DNA of 39,810 bases from NCBI GenBank assembly GCA_904420005.1, contig CAJFTT010000002.1, forward strand, positions 1-39,810, read 5' to 3'. This stretch comes from Candidatus Tabaqchalia intestinavium. Lineage in GTDB: Bacteria > Bacillota > Clostridia > Oscillospirales > CAJFTT01. Numbering within the stretch: the first letter of the stretch is position 1; each line of letters opens with the position of its first letter. A model generated the notes under the pieces. That model made no database searches, had not been told where the DNA came from, and was given only the letters and a program-made list of their open reading frames with translations. Position numbers and translations under genes: made by a program. Below are positions 30,256-39,532 of this stretch, piece by piece.

Positions 30256-30284
30256 TTGACATTTCCGGTAAATAATGGTATTGT
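30256..30284 (+). promoter_or_regulatory. Promoter of GLUG-protein gene
   Basis: TTGACA (30256-30261) and TATTGT (30279-30284), spacer 17 bases. Transcription would start near 30291 and the leader would include the nested hairpins at 30316-30414. The promoter lies 22 bases after the GH42 stop codon. Confidence 0.7.
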
Positions 30285-30315
30285 TCAGTATAGTGAAAAG
30301 TGGGCTTCTGCCCGG

Positions 30316-30414
30316 AAAGGCAAACCTTTTCGTTCTGTATCCAAAAGCGTTTTTTCTCCCTGTATACGGGGGGAAAGAACGCTTTTTTAGGTTGCGGGAA
30401 AAGGTTTGCTTTTT
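30316..30414 (+). promoter_or_regulatory. Nested terminator-like hairpins in leader
   Basis: An outer stem pairs AAAGGCAAACCTTTTC (30316-30331) with GAAAAGGTTTGC plus T residues (30398-30413) and ends in TTTTT. An inner stem pairs AAAAGCGTT (30343-30351) with AACGCTTTT (30378-30386), with CCC/GGG inside, and is itself followed by TT. Each looks like a rho-independent terminator. They may end GH42 transcription, but they also lie between the promoter at 30256 and the GLUG gene, so transcription of that gene would need read-through or regulated antitermination. No known riboswitch was recognised. Confidence 0.6.
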
Positions 30415-30463
30415 CATTCCAAGCAAAATCTTTGAACAAAGGAACGAAAAGAGGTTGAACCGC

Positions 30464-33208
30464 ATGAAGCAAAAACACAGGATCTTGTCGATGCTCCTGA
30501 CCTTATGCATGGTATTCGGTCCGTTCGCCGCTGGGACGGCCGTTGCCTCTGCGCAGGGAGGAGAACTGACGGGGAACGGGACGGCCGAGACGCCGTATCA
30601 GATTCAGGACGCCGCCGACCTCATGGCTTTCATCACCCTGGTGGAGGCGGATCCGGACGCCTGCGCGGTGCTGACAGGCGATATCGACGTGCAGGATCTC
30701 GCGCTGACGGCCGCTCCCATCTATTCCTACGAAGGGACGTTCGACGGCGACGGCCATACGATCCGCGGCCTAACGATCGGCGGGACCGGCGGCAACAAAG
30801 CCATTTTCCGCACGCTTTCTGAAGGCGGCGTTGTCAAAGACCTCAACGTCAGCGGCGCGGTGTCGGGCACCTCTAATGTAGCCGGAATCGTAGTGACGAA
30901 CTACGGCACGATAGAAAATTGCAGCTTCACGGGAACTGTGACGGGAACATCGTATCCTGTCGGCGGTATTGTCGCGCAAAACAGCGGGCAGATCATCGGC
31001 TGCACCAATCACGCGGCCGTGACCGGCGCCTTTCATGTCGGCGGCATCGCCGGGCGAAATGGGAGCACAAGCGCGGCGGGCTCGATCGAGGACAGCGTCA
31101 ACCAGGGCGCCGTAACGGGAACGAACGAAACCTCCGCGTCGGGCGGCACCGGGGGAATCGCCGGGACGAATTTCGATCTCATCGACGGCTGCCAAAACCT
31201 CGCGGCTGTCACAGGCTGCAAATATGCCGGCGGCATCACCGGATATAATCAAAAGGCCTCCGGGTTCGATACCATGGTCATCAACAGCCACAACGCGGGA
31301 GACATCCAGGGCTTGCAGTATGCGGGCGGCGTTGCGGGCTATCAGTTCGGGGCAAAGATCGCTTCCTGCTATAACGAAGGCAGCGTAAGCGCGGCGGAAA
31401 ACGCAGTCGTCAGGGCCTATATCGGCGGCATCGTCGGCTGCATGGAAGCGGCCAGCTCGAACCCGACCACGGTAAGCCACTGTTACAATACAGGTACAGT
31501 GACGGCGAGCGGAACCAGCCAGCGCGCCGGCGGGATCGTGGGCGCAAATAATTCTTCCGGCGCCGTGATCGAAGCCTGCTATAATATCGCAACGGCCAGC
31601 AACAGCGTCAATGCAGATAATGCAGGCAGCATTGCGGGCAGCAACGCTGGAACGGTGAGAAGCTGCGTTTATCTCACAAGCACAACGGCCATTGGCAGCG
31701 GCAGCGGCGCGACTGCCGACCTCACGCCTGCAGAAGAGGCGGCTCTCTCCCAGGCGGAAACCTTTGCGGCGTGGCCGGATTTCGATACTTACTGGACGAT
31801 CGACCCGTTGCTGGGCCGGCCGGTGCTGACGAACGCTTCCGAGAGCGGCGGACAGGGCACGGAGGAAATCCCTTATGAGATCCCCGATCTGGATACGCTG
31901 ATGCTGATCCGGGATCGCGTCGAAGAAGGGTTCGATTTCAGCGGCTATTATTTCACGCTTTCGGCGGATCTTGACCTGCAAGGCAGCGCCGACAATCCCT
32001 GGACGCCCATTGGAACGGATAATATGCACCCGTTCAACGGCATCTTTGACGGCGGCGGGCACACCATCCGCGGGCTGTATATCGACAGCAACAGCGACAA
32101 TCAGGGCCTGTTCGGCTATATCGGCAATTCCGGCGCGGTCAAAAATCTCACCGTCGCAGGGCAAGTCACGACAACCGGGCAGCTGGCGGGCGGCATCGTC
32201 GGCGCAAACCGAGGCGATATCATCAACTGCCACAGCACAGTGGATGTGACGGGCAGCATGCAGGTCGGCGGCATTGCCGGCATCAATCGCGGAACGATCG
32301 AAAGATGCACCTATACCGCAGGGACCGTCACCGGCGAAATGTATCAGGGCGGCATCGCCGGTTACAACGAAGAAGGGACGATCACCGACAGCTATAACCG
32401 TGGCGAGATCAACGGCGGCGACTGGACAGGCGGCATTGCCGGAAGCAATGCCAATCTGATCAAAAACTGTTACAGCGTGGGAGAACACATCACAGGGCTG
32501 CCGACAACCGGCGTGACCACCGGCACGGTCTTAAACAGCTATTACCTTGCCGAGCAAGAAGAAGCAACCACTACCGGCACCGGCAAAACGGCCGAGCAGT
32601 TCGCTTCCGGCGAGGTGACCTGGCTTCTCAACGAAGGGAAAACCGACGCGACGCAGACCTTCTATCAGACCTGCGGCGAGGGCTACCCGGAATACACGGG
32701 CGACACCGTGTATCAGATCACAAATTATCATTGCCCGGGCGATAAGACCGGCGTGAAGGCCTACAGCAACCATAGCGAAGGCACAACGGGAACGCACCGC
32801 TTCACCGCGGAAATCGAGGCGGAGGCATACCTGCACACCGCCGGCACCTGCACAAAAGAAGCCCTCTACTACAAATCCTGCGAATACTGCGGGGAAGCGT
32901 CTCCCAGCGAAACCTTCACAGGGCAGAAGGATCCGAGCAATCATGCGCATCTCGTCAAGGTAGAGGCCAAGCCCGCTACCTACGAGGCGGCAGGAAACAT
33001 CGAATACTGGCGCTGCGAGGACTGCGGCAAGTATTTCGGCGATGCAGCGGGAACGAAGGAAATCACACCCGAGAGCACAATCCTCGAAAAACTCACGCAG
33101 TCCCCGCAAACCGGCAGCAGCAGCGATCTGCTTCTCTTCGGCGCTGTCATCTTGTTCTCCGGCGCCGCGATGCTGTTCCTGACGTTGAAACGCGCGAGGA
33201 TTCGCTAA
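30464..33208 (+). CDS. GLUG-repeat cell-wall-anchored surface protein
   Basis: A 914-residue surface protein. The ATG at 30464 is preceded by GAGG; residues 1-30 are a signal peptide (cut near ASA-QGG). Two blocks of GLUG-type repeats (about 100-430 and 575-740), with units such as VGGIAGRN, AGGIVGAN and GGIAGYNEEG, should form beta-solenoids and often include an ENCSFTG-like turn. A linker region (about 440-560) precedes the second block. The C-terminal part has paired cysteines (SCEYCGE, RCEDCGKYFG), then SPQTG (residues 880-884), a hydrophobic stretch and KRARIR. SPQTG is an (N/S)PxTG-type sortase signal, so wall anchoring is likely. The ligand is unknown; adhesion is a guess from fold and location. 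Confidence 0.88.
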   Translation: MKQKHRILSMLLTLCMVFGPFAAGTAVASAQGGELTGNGTAETPYQIQDAADLMAFITLVEADPDACAVLTGDIDVQDLALTAAPIYSYEGTFDGDGHTIRGLTIGGTGGNKAIFRTLSEGGVVKDLNVSGAVSGTSNVAGIVVTNYGTIENCSFTGTVTGTSYPVGGIVAQNSGQIIGCTNHAAVTGAFHVGGIAGRNGSTSAAGSIEDSVNQGAVTGTNETSASGGTGGIAGTNFDLIDGCQNLAAVTGCKYAGGITGYNQKASGFDTMVINSHNAGDIQGLQYAGGVAGYQFGAKIASCYNEGSVSAAENAVVRAYIGGIVGCMEAASSNPTTVSHCYNTGTVTASGTSQRAGGIVGANNSSGAVIEACYNIATASNSVNADNAGSIAGSNAGTVRSCVYLTSTTAIGSGSGATADLTPAEEAALSQAETFAAWPDFDTYWTIDPLLGRPVLTNASESGGQGTEEIPYEIPDLDTLMLIRDRVEEGFDFSGYYFTLSADLDLQGSADNPWTPIGTDNMHPFNGIFDGGGHTIRGLYIDSNSDNQGLFGYIGNSGAVKNLTVAGQVTTTGQLAGGIVGANRGDIINCHSTVDVTGSMQVGGIAGINRGTIERCTYTAGTVTGEMYQGGIAGYNEEGTITDSYNRGEINGGDWTGGIAGSNANLIKNCYSVGEHITGLPTTGVTTGTVLNSYYLAEQEEATTTGTGKTAEQFASGEVTWLLNEGKTDATQTFYQTCGEGYPEYTGDTVYQITNYHCPGDKTGVKAYSNHSEGTTGTHRFTAEIEAEAYLHTAGTCTKEALYYKSCEYCGEASPSETFTGQKDPSNHAHLVKVEAKPATYEAAGNIEYWRCEDCGKYFGDAAGTKEITPESTILEKLTQSPQTGSSSDLLLFGAVILFSGAAMLFLTLKRARIR

Positions 33209-33745: not shown

Positions 33746-34183
33746 TCACGCTACGCAAAACGGCGCGGCGAGCAGACGCTCCTCTCCGTCCCCGAGCCAG
33801 ATGGCCTTGACCACACGGTATTCGCCCGCGGGCAGCGTCCCCTCCCACGTCACGGAGAAACGGTTGGTTTCCCCCGGCGCGAGAATCGCCGCCAGATCCG
33901 CGAACGCCCGGTCGTCCTCGTCCATCGCGTACCAGGCGTCGCCCCGCTTGCGCTCAAGAGAGAATTCCATGCCGTAGGTCATTTCCCGCGCCGTCGCGTT
34001 GGTGATCAGCAGCGTCAATCCGGATTCGGTCAGGCTCCCCTCCTCCACGGCCATGGACACCTCCGCCGCCGCGGCCAGCGGCGCGCGCTCCGTCGGATGG
34101 GAAAACCGCGCCGTCCCGCAGCCGGCCAGGCCCAGCGCCAACAGCAGCGCCCCAGCCGCAATCGCAATTCTTTTGGTCCGCAT
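33746..34183 (-). CDS. Small lipoprotein with Ig-like fold
   Basis: A 145-residue lipoprotein: residues 1-22 form a signal peptide ending in the lipobox LAGC. The mature part resembles a bacterial Ig-like beta sandwich, with GLTLLITNATAREMTYGMEF, the WYAMDEDDRAF segment, LAPGETNRFSVTW and LPAGEYRVVKAIW. Proteins of this shape are often found beside sigma/anti-sigma genes, but the function is unknown. GGGAGGGG lies about 12 bases before the ATG. It is downstream of the two-TM gene at 34268 by an 84-bp gap and may be in the same transcript. An alternative is a stand-alone surface protein. Confidence 0.8.
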   Translation of the reverse strand: MRTKRIAIAAGALLLALGLAGCGTARFSHPTERAPLAAAAEVSMAVEEGSLTESGLTLLITNATAREMTYGMEFSLERKRGDAWYAMDEDDRAFADLAAILAPGETNRFSVTWEGTLPAGEYRVVKAIWLGDGEERLLAAPFCVA

Positions 34184-34267: not shown

Positions 34268-34924
34268 TCACGGGTTCTCGGGCCGCGGGCGCTTCGCCTG
34301 CTGCCGCTTCTTCATCCGATGCAGCAAGACGGCGTACAGCCCGCCGGATAACGCGAGCGCCCCCGCCACCAGCGCGGCCACCGACCAGATGCGCAGCAGC
34401 GTGACGGGGAAGTCCCGCCCGCCAATGCTCCCGGTCGTTTGCTGCGCTTCCGGCTGCTGAGAAGCGAACCCTTCATAGATCTCCTGCCCCGGCTGCGACT
34501 GCACCGCATCCATGCCCGAATCGCTCTGCCCCGGAGGGCTCTCGGACACGATTGTGCCCGGCGCCTGCGGCAAATTCTCCTCCGGCTGTGTGTCCGCCCC
34601 GGCCGCGGATGACGTTACCGCATCCTCCCAAGCGACGCCATCCCCCGTACCGGCGCCGTCCCTCCAGCCGCCCCAACCATCGCTGCCGCTCTGCATGGAC
34701 AGCGACATGCCCAGCTGCGCAGACAGGGCAAACGGCATTCCAACGCAAAGCAGCAGCGCCGCAAAGCAACAGGAAACCGCCAGCGGCAGGCGGCGCACCC
34801 GCCAGGCATCCCGGCGTCTCTCCCGGCGCGCCACAGCCCGCAGGCAGGCTTCTTTCACCTGCGGGCGCAATGTTTCGCGCGGCCGCAGCGTCCCCAGCGC
34901 GCGGCGCAGCTCCTGCTTTTTCAC
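34268..34924 (-). CDS. Two-TM membrane protein, putative anti-sigma factor
   Basis: A 218-residue protein with a basic cytoplasmic N-terminus (residues 1-45, MKKQELRRALGTLRPRETLR), a membrane segment at about 46-68, an outer region of about 105 residues rich in Ser, Gly, Gln and Pro, a second segment at about 175-201, and a basic tail. The start is GTG at 34924, overlapping the sigma-factor stop by 4 bases, so the two are translationally coupled. This layout fits a membrane anti-sigma factor that holds the upstream-coded sigma, though no HCC zinc motif is visible. The low-complexity outer region has no evident sensor domain. Function is inferred from context. Confidence 0.7.
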   Translation of the reverse strand: MKKQELRRALGTLRPRETLRPQVKEACLRAVARRERRRDAWRVRRLPLAVSCCFAALLLCVGMPFALSAQLGMSLSMQSGSDGWGGWRDGAGTGDGVAWEDAVTSSAAGADTQPEENLPQAPGTIVSESPPGQSDSGMDAVQSQPGQEIYEGFASQQPEAQQTTGSIGGRDFPVTLLRIWSVAALVAGALALSGGLYAVLLHRMKKRQQAKRPRPENP

Positions 34925-35442
34925 GATCTTCTCCCCTTCCCGACGCGCGGGACCGCCTCGTCCTCTTGCTCCAGTTCCAGCCGCAGCGCGGCGCGCGCCC
35001 GCAGCAGGCGCATCTTGACCGCGCCGGGCCGCAGCTGCAGGATGCGCGCCGTCTCCTCCACGGAATAGCCCTCATAGTAATGCAGCACCACCGCCGGGCG
35101 GTAAGCCTCCGGCAGCGCGAGCACCTGCTCGAGCACTGCCTGCTCCGGCGGCGGGGCGGCGGCGGTCATCGCCTCCTCCAGCGGCGCCGTCGGATGCCGC
35201 GCCCGGGTACGCAGCATATTCTTGCAGAGGTTAACCGCCACGCGGCACAGCCACCGCCGCTCATGCGCCTCGTCCCGGAATTGCGGCGCGCGGGCATACA
35301 GGCGCACGAACGCTTCCTGCACCGCGTCCTCGGCGTCCGCCGTGTTTTTCAGGTACAGCAAACAAAGACGGAACAGCATGGCGCTGTACCGGTCGTATTG
35401 TTGCGCAAAATTCTGCGGGTCAGGTGCCAAAGGCGCAGGCAT
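34921..35442 (-). CDS. ECF-type RNA polymerase sigma factor
   Basis: A 173-residue ECF sigma factor. Region 2 is seen in YLKNTADAEDAVQEAFVRLY (about residues 30-49) and region 4 in YYEGYSVEETARILQLRPGA, the helix-turn-helix that reads the -35 element. No region 1.1 or 3, as usual for ECF factors. AGGAAGGG lies upstream of the ATG at 35442. It is the first gene of a minus-strand cassette with the two-TM protein. Its regulon is unknown; the housekeeping-like promoter at 35616-35644 may express it. Confidence 0.92.
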   Translation of the reverse strand: MPAPLAPDPQNFAQQYDRYSAMLFRLCLLYLKNTADAEDAVQEAFVRLYARAPQFRDEAHERRWLCRVAVNLCKNMLRTRARHPTAPLEEAMTAAAPPPEQAVLEQVLALPEAYRPAVVLHYYEGYSVEETARILQLRPGAVKMRLLRARAALRLELEQEDEAVPRVGKGRRS

Positions 35443-35841: not shown

Positions 35842-37830
35842 TCAGTCATCGAGCTCCCATTTGATGAAATTGCCGGTGGTCGCGTCGATCTCGAATTCGT
35901 ACTTTTTGCCGTTTTGGATCGCTTCGCCCTCATAGCTCGCACGGCCGTCGTCCCGGTCAAGCTCAAGCTCCCGGATGGTGCAGCCGGGCAGGCGCTCCTC
36001 CACGAGCGACCTAGCTTTGTCGGTGCCGATATAGCCGGTGCTGCTGCCGGTATTGCCGCCGGAGCCGGTATTGGTGCTGCCGGAACTGGTATTGCCCGAG
36101 CCTGTATTGCCGCTGCCCGTGTTGTTGCCGGTATCGATGCTGCCGCCCTCGGAGCTCCATTCGTACACGTCGCCGGTGCTCGCGTCGATCGTGAATTCAT
36201 ACTCCGTGCCGTCCTTGTACGCTTCGCCTTCATAGATCATGCGGCCGTCGTCCCGATCCAGCTCCATCTCGGTGATCGTCGCGCCCGGCACACGGCTGAG
36301 GACGATCTCCTTGGCTTTATCAAAGCCGATATAGCTGCCGTTGTCCTGCACCGGCGTGCTGGAAATCGTGCGAACCTTCCATTCCCGCACATTGCCGGTC
36401 GCGGCGTCGATCTCGAATTCATAGCGCTCATTATCTTTGACCGCTTCGCCTTCATAGATCATCGTGCCGTCATCGCGGTCGAGCTTGAGCTCGGTGATGG
36501 TCGCGTTCGCCGCGCGCCCGAGCACAATCTGCTTGGCCTCGTCATAGCTGATCAGATCCTGCGTCGATGTGTCCGTACCATTCCCGGTGCCCGGCGTGGT
36601 GCCGCCCGTCTGGGTGATCAGCTCCGCTTTCCATTTGAGCACTTCGCCGGTCAGCGCCGCGATGGCAAATTCATATTCGGCCGTGCCGTCATAAGCCTCG
36701 CCCTCATAGACCACCTGTCCGTTTTCCCAGTCGAGCTTGATCTCGGTCAGCGTGGCGTTCGCCGCGCGGCCCAGCACGATCTCCTTGGCTTTGTCGTAGC
36801 CGATATACTGGTCGTTATCGGGAATCGGCTGGTCGTCGCCGTCGGACATTTCGCTTCTCCACTTCACGAACTCCCCGCTCGTCGCGTCGATCGCGAATTC
36901 ATATTCCACGCCGTCAAGATACATCTCACCCTCGTACACCGCGCGGCCGTTTTCATAGTCGAACTCAATTTCCGCCAGCGTGGCGCCCGGCAGGCGTTCC
37001 TGCGCGAGGCTCTTCGCTTTTTCCACGCCGATATAATTCTGCTCACTCACCGTCCCCGTCAGGTTCTGCTGCACCGAGGGGTCCTTGGCCAGCGCCAGCA
37101 GCGACAGATCGTTGATCGTCAGGCCGACCAGCGTCGCCTCCGACTGGGTGGGATCGTTTTTGAGAATCTGCTGGATGAGCGCCGCTTTCCCCACGGAAAT
37201 GCCGTACTGGTTCGCCATGGCACGCAGCGCCTCGCTCTCCTCCACCGTCTGGGTCAGCACGGCGCCGGAAATCGAATTATTCAAAAGCGCGGTATTGATC
37301 TCCTCCGTGAGCTGGTTTTCCAGCGCGACGCCGCGCGCGGCGTCGCTGTTCTCCACCGAGACGAGAACCGAATTCTTCGCTTCGTCGATATAGCCGTTTT
37401 TCACCATGGAACCGATGAGGGCGTTGACCGCGACCTTGAGCTGCGTCCCTTCCAGCTCCATCCCGTCGAGCACCAGCTCGGCGTCGCTGTTGAGCGCCTG
37501 CACCTCCAGCACGCGCTCGTTGCGGCTGGTTTTGAGCTCAATGCTGGGATTGACGTCGATGGCGATGAGCGAATCGACGGCGTTGAAATACCGATATCCC
37601 AGCACGCCGCCGCCCACGGCCAGCATCACCACGGCGGCCGCCGCCGCGGTCCATCCGATCCATTTCCGGTTCTTTTTCTGTGCGGTGTTTTCCATTGTCA
37701 CTGTCTGCTCTGTTTTCATGGCAAGGTTCCTCCTCTGCACTTCACGAGCAGCACGGATCTGATCCATCACGTCGGGCGTCGCCTGCGAAACAGCCCGGCG
37801 CAGCGCCTGTTCAATCTCCTTGTTACGCAT
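35842..37830 (-). CDS. RsgI-like anti-sigma protein with five PepSY-like repeats
   Basis: A 662-residue membrane protein (ATG at 37830; an ATG two codons earlier at 37836 is closer to GGAGGGGG). About 56 cytoplasmic residues precede one membrane helix (about 57-78). Then comes the RsgI-type juxtamembrane domain, with AIDVNPSIELKTSRNERVLE; the Asn-Pro there corresponds to the reported self-cleavage bond of RsgI proteins. Five repeats of about 62 residues follow (about 266-327, 342-403, 426-487, 500-561, 600-662), each with a Y/L-I-x-x-x-x-A-K/R start, LDRDDGxxxYEGEA and a YEFxIDAxTG end, resembling PepSY domains. A Gly/Asn/Ser/Thr linker (567-598) precedes the last. It overlaps the upstream sigma gene by 8 bases. 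Confidence 0.87.
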   Translation of the reverse strand: MRNKEIEQALRRAVSQATPDVMDQIRAAREVQRRNLAMKTEQTVTMENTAQKKNRKWIGWTAAAAAVVMLAVGGGVLGYRYFNAVDSLIAIDVNPSIELKTSRNERVLEVQALNSDAELVLDGMELEGTQLKVAVNALIGSMVKNGYIDEAKNSVLVSVENSDAARGVALENQLTEEINTALLNNSISGAVLTQTVEESEALRAMANQYGISVGKAALIQQILKNDPTQSEATLVGLTINDLSLLALAKDPSVQQNLTGTVSEQNYIGVEKAKSLAQERLPGATLAEIEFDYENGRAVYEGEMYLDGVEYEFAIDATSGEFVKWRSEMSDGDDQPIPDNDQYIGYDKAKEIVLGRAANATLTEIKLDWENGQVVYEGEAYDGTAEYEFAIAALTGEVLKWKAELITQTGGTTPGTGNGTDTSTQDLISYDEAKQIVLGRAANATITELKLDRDDGTMIYEGEAVKDNERYEFEIDAATGNVREWKVRTISSTPVQDNGSYIGFDKAKEIVLSRVPGATITEMELDRDDGRMIYEGEAYKDGTEYEFTIDASTGDVYEWSSEGGSIDTGNNTGSGNTGSGNTSSGSTNTGSGGNTGSSTGYIGTDKARSLVEERLPGCTIRELELDRDDGRASYEGEAIQNGKKYEFEIDATTGNFIKWELDD

Positions 37831-38398
37831 GGTCATCCCCCTCCGTCAAAGTCCTTCTGAGTTTCGCGAGCGCGCGCCGGTATTTCGTCAGCGTCCCGGT
37901 GAGCGTAAGCTGCAACATTTGAGCGATTTCGCGGTGCTTGAGGCCCGCGACTGCATGCAACATGACAATCTGCCGTTCTTCCTCTCCCAGCGTCTGCAGC
38001 GCCGCGGAGAGCAACACGCGTTCTTCCGTCAGATCTTTGGGCGCGGGCAGCTTCTCCAGAAGTTCAAAGCCGTCCGGGGCGTTTTTCGCCGTTTCCCGCC
38101 GGCGCATGAGCGCAAGGTTGCGCGCGATAGCCAAAATCCACGCCATCGGCTTGCCCTGCGGCTGATACGTCCCGGCGGCGGCATCCACCCGGAGATACAC
38201 GTCCTGCATCAGTTCCTCTGCATCGTGTTCGTTGTTCACAATTGATAGAATGAATCCATAGACCGCCGTGCTGGTCTGCCGGTATAGGCTCTCGAGCGCC
38301 TCCCCGTCGCCGGCCGCGATCCTCGCAAGCAGCGCCTCGTCCACGACCGGCGCACGCCTGGAGATTGCTTGTTCGGTTTGCAACATCCACAACAGCAT
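37823..38398 (-). CDS. ECF-like RNA polymerase sigma factor
   Basis: A 191-residue sigma-70 family protein. The start chosen is the ATG at 38398 (MLLWMLQTEQAISRRAP) with GAAAGGG 9 bases upstream; a GTG at 38416 would include that site. Region 2 shows NNEHDAEELMQDVYLRVDAA and the WILAIARNLALMRRRE helix; region 4 shows LGEEERQIVMLHAVAGLKHR and EIAQMLQLTLTGTLTKYRRA. It overlaps the RsgI-like gene by 8 bases, so the pair is probably a sigma and its regulator. Whether it is a true SigI or another ECF group needs a family search. Confidence 0.9.
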   Translation of the reverse strand: MLLWMLQTEQAISRRAPVVDEALLARIAAGDGEALESLYRQTSTAVYGFILSIVNNEHDAEELMQDVYLRVDAAAGTYQPQGKPMAWILAIARNLALMRRRETAKNAPDGFELLEKLPAPKDLTEERVLLSAALQTLGEEERQIVMLHAVAGLKHREIAQMLQLTLTGTLTKYRRALAKLRRTLTEGDDHA

Positions 38399-38500
38399 CT
38401 TACGGATCCCTTTCACTTGAATAATGCACGACCTCGCCCATTTATTGCACCATTCAAAAAAATTTTTTCAAAGCATTTCCCTCGGTGGACGGCGCGGAAA

Positions 38501-38845: not shown

Positions 38846-39532
38846 ATGATGAAAAAATCGCTTGCGCTGGCCTGCGCGCTTTCCATGGCGCTGGGCATGG
38901 GAACGGTCGCCTTCGCCTCGAATGACGACACGAACATCGCCATGGGAAAAACGCCGATGGCAAGCAGCGACAAGGTGCAGACCACATCCGACGGCACGGT
39001 GCTGAGCATGGACAAAGCGCTCGACGGCAACACCTCCACCCGGTGGGGCATCGACGGCGTGACGCCGGACGAAAACGGTAATTTCACAACGGACGTTTGG
39101 TTCGGCGTGGATCTGGGCGCCGAGGGGACGTTCAATAAGATCGTAATTCTCTGGGAGAACGCCCGTCCGGAGCAGTCCGCGGAGGGCTATACGCTGCAAT
39201 ACTCCAACGACAACGAAACCTGGACGGACATTGACGCGCGCTTTGAATATGGGGCCGAGAAAACCAACGATGCGTATTACACCGACACCGCGACCTTCGA
39301 CTCTATCACTGCGCGGTATGTGCGCGTGAACATGCACAAGGGCGCGCCGCTCAACGACGAATTCAAGGGCAACCCCTCGATCTTCGAGTTTGAGGTATAC
39401 GGCACGATGAACGGTGCGCCGGCTACGCCGGATACGGACGCCGACACCATGATCCCGATCGCGCTGGCCACCGCCGCGCTGTCTCTGGGCACCTTGATGT
39501 TCACCGTCCGCCGTTCGGCCCGGGAGCAATAA
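38846..39532 (+). CDS. Secreted discoidin (F5/8C, CBM32-like) domain protein
   Basis: A 228-residue exported protein. Tandem ATGs at 38846 and 38849 follow AAAGGAAGGA. A signal peptide (residues 1-25, cut near VAFA-SND) is followed by one discoidin-type domain (about 28-185): NIAMGKTPMASS, ALDGNTSTRWG, DVWFGVDLGAEGTFNKIVI, YTLQYSNDNETWTDI and ITARYVRVNMH are characteristic. These domains often bind sugars. The C-terminus has a hydrophobic segment (about 203-221) and RRSAREQ, like a sortase substrate tail, but the preceding TPDTDAD is not a clear LPxTG motif, so membrane retention is an alternative. No enzyme domain is fused. Confidence 0.88.
   Translation: MMKKSLALACALSMALGMGTVAFASNDDTNIAMGKTPMASSDKVQTTSDGTVLSMDKALDGNTSTRWGIDGVTPDENGNFTTDVWFGVDLGAEGTFNKIVILWENARPEQSAEGYTLQYSNDNETWTDIDARFEYGAEKTNDAYYTDTATFDSITARYVRVNMHKGAPLNDEFKGNPSIFEFEVYGTMNGAPATPDTDADTMIPIALATAALSLGTLMFTVRRSAREQ

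Follow-up and report, generated by a model that had tools for sequence, protein, structure and literature searches.

An RsgI_M protein with five PepSY repeats, a putative anti-sigma factor for an ECF sigma factor in Candidatus Tabaqchalia intestinavium

The gene pair and the architecture of its membrane protein

The window analysed here, a stretch of 39,810 nucleotides from contig CAJFTT010000002.1 of Candidatus Tabaqchalia intestinavium (assembly GCA_904420005.1), carries on its minus strand a gene at 35842-37830 that codes for 662 amino acids and a stop when read from ATG 37830; an alternative ATG two codons upstream gives 664 amino acids. The original prediction had placed the gene correctly, naming no strand. 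Its product, a putative anti-sigma factor, consists of an N-terminal domain, a transmembrane segment, an RsgI_M (SEAL) domain and five PepSY repeats, as read from the open reading frame and Pfam. Directly upstream on the minus strand (37823-38398) lies the gene of an ECF sigma factor with Sigma70_r2 and Sigma70_r4_2 domains (Pfam), the stop of which overlaps the anti-sigma start ATG 37830, and an adjacent sigma factor had indeed been predicted. The listed sigma start, GTG 38416, sits within the likely ribosome-binding region, and ATG 38398 is therefore the likelier start.

Residues 1-55 of the anti-sigma protein (37666-37830) are basic (pI 10.8), with two predicted helices, and form a putative sigma-binding domain; in Pfam the N-terminus matches no sigma-binding family, and RsgI_N (PF12791) has no match in the protein at E up to 1. 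One transmembrane helix follows at residues 58-82 (37585-37659), with positive charges on its N-terminal side. The RsgI_M (SEAL-like) domain occupies residues 87-221 (37168-37572), scores 101.9 bits against a Pfam cut-off of 25.3 and is supported by a fold match; no other RsgI_M protein was found in the genome. Near its start, residues 92-99 read DVNPSIEL, in which Asn94-Pro95 (37546-37551) is the predicted self-cleavage site by alignment with PDB sequences.

A PDB sequence search with the window protein matched the RsgI periplasmic domains of C. thermocellum and B. subtilis, and the C. thermocellum chains start at the proline matching Pro95, directly after the cut. Self-cleavage of RsgI central domains is described in PMC12203970 (excerpts). 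Structure prediction, proposed earlier as a check, was carried out with AlphaFold2 on residues 1-410 and 40 relatives, and gave a model with mean pLDDT 84.6 and pTM 0.63 that is unreliable at residues 39-75. Predicted strands at 87-92 and 96-101 flank the Asn-Pro loop. By VIA-align, 8hdj_B superposes on model residues 95-255 (Z 17.2, rmsd 2.4, 150 residues), 8t9n_A on residues 85-219, which cover the cut (Z 15.2, rmsd 2.3, 128 residues), and the PepSY structure 4exr with Z 10.9, rmsd 1.6 and 66 residues, the PepSY comparison covering repeats 1-2 only. 4exr, 2gu3 and 5boi are among the solved PepSY structures nearest in fold. The predicted fold thus agrees both with solved, self-cleaved RsgI domains and with PepSY.

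The outer part carries PepSY repeats at residues 266-328 (36847-37035), 342-404 (36619-36807), 426-488 (36367-36555), 500-562 (36145-36333) and, at the extreme C-terminus, 600-662 (35845-36033). PepSY (PF03413) reaches 186.7 bits in five stretches of the protein (Pfam), and in a whole-genome Pfam search all five single repeats pass the cut-off of 24, at 54.6, 48.9, 48.4, 45.6 and 33.0 bits, which upholds the earlier assignment to PepSY. Homologous repeats of about 62 residues plus a Gly/Asn/Ser linker had been predicted; the repeats stand, as units of 63 residues with 35-62% mutual identity, while the Gly/Asn/Ser/Thr linker (residues 563-599; 36034-36144) lies inside the array, between repeats 4 and 5, and not behind it. 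Because the nearest match of each window repeat is another repeat in the same protein, the array looks expanded or homogenised within its own lineage. Outside this protein, the nearest repeats, up to 54% identical, come mostly from one relative (L028). Of all 268 repeats, 226 are nearest to a repeat of another protein, mostly of the same position class. The only other PepSY match in the genome (27.0 bits) is a 469-aa ORF on contig C64, which looks like YpeB.

Several further genes lie nearby. A second ECF sigma gene with SigM-like NCBIfam matches (34921-35442, minus strand) is overlapped by a gene for a membrane-like product with no family above cut-off (34268-34924, minus strand), and these two probably form a further sigma/anti-sigma pair next to the one described above. 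Just downstream of this second pair, an ORF (33746-34183, minus strand) codes for a lipoprotein-like product that contains a Big_14 Ig-like domain. On the plus strand, 30275-33208 encodes 977 amino acids that include GLUG repeats and end in SPQTG plus a hydrophobic tail, an ending which we take to resemble a variant sortase signal. The divergent gene at 38846-39532, also on the plus strand, codes for an F5/8 type C protein that looks secreted and has a hydrophobic C-terminal segment.

Relatives in Clostridia and placement relative to RsgI

The query for a scan of named genomes was an alignment that joined residues 1-248 of the window protein to four relatives and contained no PepSY. At least 540 relatives were confirmed, and the best 80 of these were kept. 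A PepSY HMM built here detected the domain in all 80, with one copy in 3 relatives, two in 18, three in 40, four in 12, five in 4 and six in 3; these copy numbers are minima, as contig ends or masked bases truncate some of the proteins. An ECF sigma gene lies directly upstream in 79 of the same 80, and the sequence of the one relative without a visible sigma gene (L090) extends only 62 bases upstream. Part of the DVNP conservation among the relatives is a product of the selection itself, as the motif was contained in one of the two patterns used for the scan. In alignment A5, which joins the window protein with 40 of the 80 relatives, Pfam finds PepSY in 40 of 41 proteins, RsgI_M in 41 and RsgI_N in none. 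The domain and repeat matches of the window protein are far beyond chance.

RsgI_M as such is present in 200 of 398 genomes of a phylum sample. Among the best 30 RsgI_M loci of that sample, used as a control, RsgI_N was found in 28 and PepSY in none. In a FastTree phylogeny of 119 RsgI_M domains, all 87 PepSY proteins form one clade (0.888), a larger clade (0.997) adds four ECF-partnered proteins without PepSY, and 28 SigI-type RsgI_M sequences fall outside the latter. The simplest reading of this tree is one switch to ECF partners followed by a single gain of PepSY. The original prediction of an RsgI-like protein is thus borne out by the RsgI_M domain and the Asn-Pro, and fails where RsgI identity is concerned. 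With RsgI_N missing (0 of 41 proteins versus 28 of 30 in the control) and a partner that is not SigI but an ECF sigma factor with regions 2 and 4, the window protein is not RsgI proper, and its designation as a true RsgI was rejected.

A conserved partner gene beside the sigma/anti-sigma pair was likewise rejected. When the frames flanking 79 loci were clustered, no neighbour gene common to the pair emerged: apart from sigma, RsgI/PepSY and antisense shadow frames, the clusters are small, the largest of them being transporter-like and present at only 13 of the 79 loci. The pair represents a signalling family that is widespread in gut Clostridia and apparently undescribed.

A promoter-like motif and its copies in relatives

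Upstream of the sigma gene, the window contains an exact match to a motif of the family, TGCAATAAA-N13-GCATTA (38422-38449, minus strand), and, upstream of its -35-like element, an A6T7 tract (38456-38468, minus strand) of which a similar form is kept in the family. The family motif has a rigid layout of A/T tract, TGCAATAAA, N13 and GCRTTA; in the alignment, about 8 bases separate the A/T tract from TGCAATAAAA, 12 bases separate TGCAATAAAA from GCATTA, and the ribosome-binding site follows about 7 bases later. TGCAATAAA is matched at 8 or 9 of its 9 positions in 82 of 87 upstream regions, and the 8-mer GCAATAAA occurs in 73 of the 87, compared with 1.7 expected from Markov-regenerated sequences. 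With three mismatches allowed, the window holds this single match, and none lies ahead of the divergent gene at 38846-39532.

A motif model built from 63 sites was run over 245 genomes of the order and matched in 58 of them; because 24 candidates were scored per genome, misses in this search carry little weight. Among the best 30 matches with loci, 29 are at a sigma-RsgI pair, 26 of these with PepSY in view, and the remaining one (L231) lies ahead of a secreted-looking protein. In the window's genome the model picked out a single site, the one at 38422-38449. We predict that the motif is the autoregulatory promoter of the sigma factor. It might instead be bound by a different regulator or act as an RNA element, as TGCAATAA and TGCATTA, spaced about 21 bases apart, resemble a direct repeat and the motif lies very near the start codon, ending about 7 bases ahead of the ribosome-binding site. 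This is improbable, however, since the best matches of the genome scan are almost only at the ECF sigma pair, and since two blocks and an upstream A/T tract fit ECF promoters.

Further copies of this candidate promoter point to possible targets. In 37 of the 80 named genomes, 68 sites were found at up to one mismatch versus 16 for the reversed pattern; 34 are at a sigma gene and 34 elsewhere, and all 34 extra sites were inspected. Seven of them lie ahead of clear PepSY proteins that pass Pfam, with five PepSY domains (L159), three (L170, divergent from sigma) or Cu_amine_oxidN1 and two PepSY each (L173, L182, L184, L186 and L188). Four lie ahead of short membrane proteins of weak PepSY type, namely L172, L174 and L175 (13.8-14.6 bits with PepSY in Pfam, below cut-off) and L187, assigned outside the Pfam scan. 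At the other 23 the PepSY HMM built here detected no PepSY frame downstream. The seven exact extra sites comprise four clear PepSY targets, three weak ones and no other, and a tract with 11 or 12 A/T per 12 bases is found at seven extra sites, which are exactly the seven clear PepSY ones. At another locus (L101), a PepSY gene divergent from sigma is preceded by a variant of the motif (GCGATAAAA, GCATTA).

The exact pattern was also searched in wider samples, where no PepSY targets were added in either the order or the phylum. Across 394 genomes of the order, 33 sites were found, 30 of them with loci, 23 at the sigma pair and 7 away from it. Six of these seven lack an A/T tract, are mostly within coding sequence and look like chance matches; the seventh (L253), which does have the tract, lies ahead of a protein that looks secreted and lacks PepSY. 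In the 398 phylum genomes, 13 exact sites beyond the window's genome divide into 5 at the pair and 8 elsewhere. The protein behind the motif at L231 is acidic and, by eye, resembles the Cu_amine_oxidN1 type without obvious PepSY. As the motif at L253 and L231 precedes secreted-looking proteins without PepSY, the regulon may exceed PepSY.

The link between promoter and PepSY proteins is present in about nine of the genomes examined and is not universal. In the window's genome, 32 matches at up to three mismatches versus 24 for the reversed pattern are near chance and reveal no second promoter copy, the best other site having two mismatches; no other sigma target was found there, nor any Cu_amine_oxidN1 protein (the genome is 82% complete). 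In relatives, the fact that extra motif copies often precede secreted PepSY proteins suggests that receptor and regulon share one module.

Proposed working, rival readings and known systems

The gene product is probably a membrane protein that holds the sigma factor inactive until its outer PepSY chain is pulled off or bound. Starting from the domains, fold match, gene pairing and motif conservation computed above, we infer sigma binding, cleavage, signal and regulation as follows, and consider it fairly likely overall that the protein is a membrane-anchored ECF anti-sigma factor on a self-cleaving RsgI (SEAL) scaffold with a five-fold outer PepSY array. Residues 1-55 would keep the ECF sigma factor inactive. 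The RsgI_M domain would cut itself between Asn94 and Pro95, and both pieces would remain joined through the beta-sheet until ligand binding to the PepSY array, or a pull on it, strips off the outer piece; a force-sensing model has been proposed for SEAL domains. A RasP/RseP-type protease would then cleave the helix, and the window's genome encodes an M50 site-2 protease (211 bits). A cytoplasmic protease would remove the N-terminal fragment, and the conserved Ala-Ala could turn into an XAA degron. Ala65 and Ala66 of the transmembrane helix are invariant in alignment A2 and kept in at least 90% of alignment A5, and their role as a ClpXP-type signal is plausible, at the level of a motif match, because XAA motifs of the RsgI helix are ascribed this function (PMC12203970, excerpts). 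The freed sigma factor would use the TGCAATAAA-N13-GCRTTA promoter to transcribe the operon that encodes it and, in some relatives, appears also to transcribe secreted PepSY proteins.

What the array senses can be read in several ways, and the earlier suggestion of a wall, peptide or protease signal is a reasonable conjecture. The array could be a purely mechanical tether that crosses the wall or attaches to it. The receptor would then respond to strain in the envelope, a role proposed for RsgI of Bacillus subtilis, and repeat number would set its reach. The range of one to six repeats among the best 80 of at least 540 relatives and the flexible linkers are consistent with such a tether, as is the work of the PepSY proteins CopD and TseB in wall assembly (PMC10653890, excerpts). 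A spacer, however, would need neither the strongly conserved acidic and aromatic residues of the repeats nor the recurrence of PepSY in proteins behind the same motif, and we regard a tether as somewhat unlikely. The repeats, being PepSY by Pfam, might alternatively bind or inhibit a peptidase outside the cell, in the way known for PepSY in M4 propeptides, so that the pathway would report protease activity; the PDB search also returned a sequence match to the PepSY-peptidase M4 propeptide 9vy3. This is doubtful, as the flanks of the 79 loci hold no widely conserved gene beyond sigma, RsgI and PepSY, peptidases included. A pathway that senses cations, with metal ions or other cations bound by the repeats, is quite improbable. 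The PepSY region is acidic in the window protein (pI 4.18, 82 Asp/Glu in 401 residues) and across 87 proteins (median pI 4.24), but a fold match of Z 7.3 is within the range of common matches and no other gene is widely recurrent beside the pair.

On the anti-sigma model, a homotypic loop can be imagined, and we offer it tentatively, as a conjecture with the odds against it. The PepSY receptor would free the sigma factor, the resulting secreted or membrane PepSY proteins would bind the same ligand and turn the signal off, and repeat number would tune the set point; the window species would have retained the autoregulated receptor alone, its array enlarged in a lineage-specific way.

In many Clostridia, ECF sigma factors would be served by a self-cleaving RsgI scaffold in which PepSY replaces polysaccharide sensors. 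The precise candidate promoter makes a testable regulon available for a family without an account in the literature searched. PepSY is common and yet poorly understood, and a domain common to receptor and outputs would give a handle on what it binds. A literature search for PepSY with RsgI, anti-sigma or ECF, most subscription papers being outside its range, returned no account of the system; both domains, RsgI_M and PepSY, are already in Pfam.

Among known systems, SigI-RsgI of Bacillus subtilis and Clostridium thermocellum resembles the window in having a single-pass anti-sigma factor in an operon with its sigma factor, and an RsgI_M/SEAL domain with an Asn-Pro cut (predicted in the window protein) and a variable outer domain (PMC12203970, excerpts). 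The window pair differs in the absence of RsgI_N, in its ECF partner with regions 2 and 4, where SigI-type sigma factors have no region 4 (PMC6056542, excerpts), and in its distinct RsgI_M clade; the outer part of RsgI consists of carbohydrate-binding or enzyme modules, whereas that of the window protein is PepSY. The sigma24C-Rsi24C pair of C. thermocellum (Cthe_1470-1471) is likely an earlier case of an RsgI-like anti-sigma factor with a sigma24-type partner, ECF-like by name, as in the window. Compared by description, the outer domain of Rsi24C resembles GH5 and the pair is up on plant biomass, unlike the window (PMC3990059, excerpts).

PepSY proteins have been tied to wall synthesis (PMC10653890, excerpts). 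YpeB, YpmB/TseB, CopD and the CD1622 lipoprotein (4exr) place PepSY outside the membrane like the window protein, but have neither RsgI_M nor a sigma partner. In the order, PepSY-repeat proteins at four loci (L013, L014, L015 and L019) adjoin, by eye, histidine-kinase-like frames, and these pairs resemble the PepSY-two-component modules of PMC12714742 (excerpts). Those modules, which include DbfQ-DbfRS of Vibrio cholerae, place PepSY in envelope sensing (PMC12714742, excerpts). As described there, the DbfQ-type PepSY is a separate small protein that acts on a histidine kinase, whereas in the window it sits within the anti-sigma factor itself.
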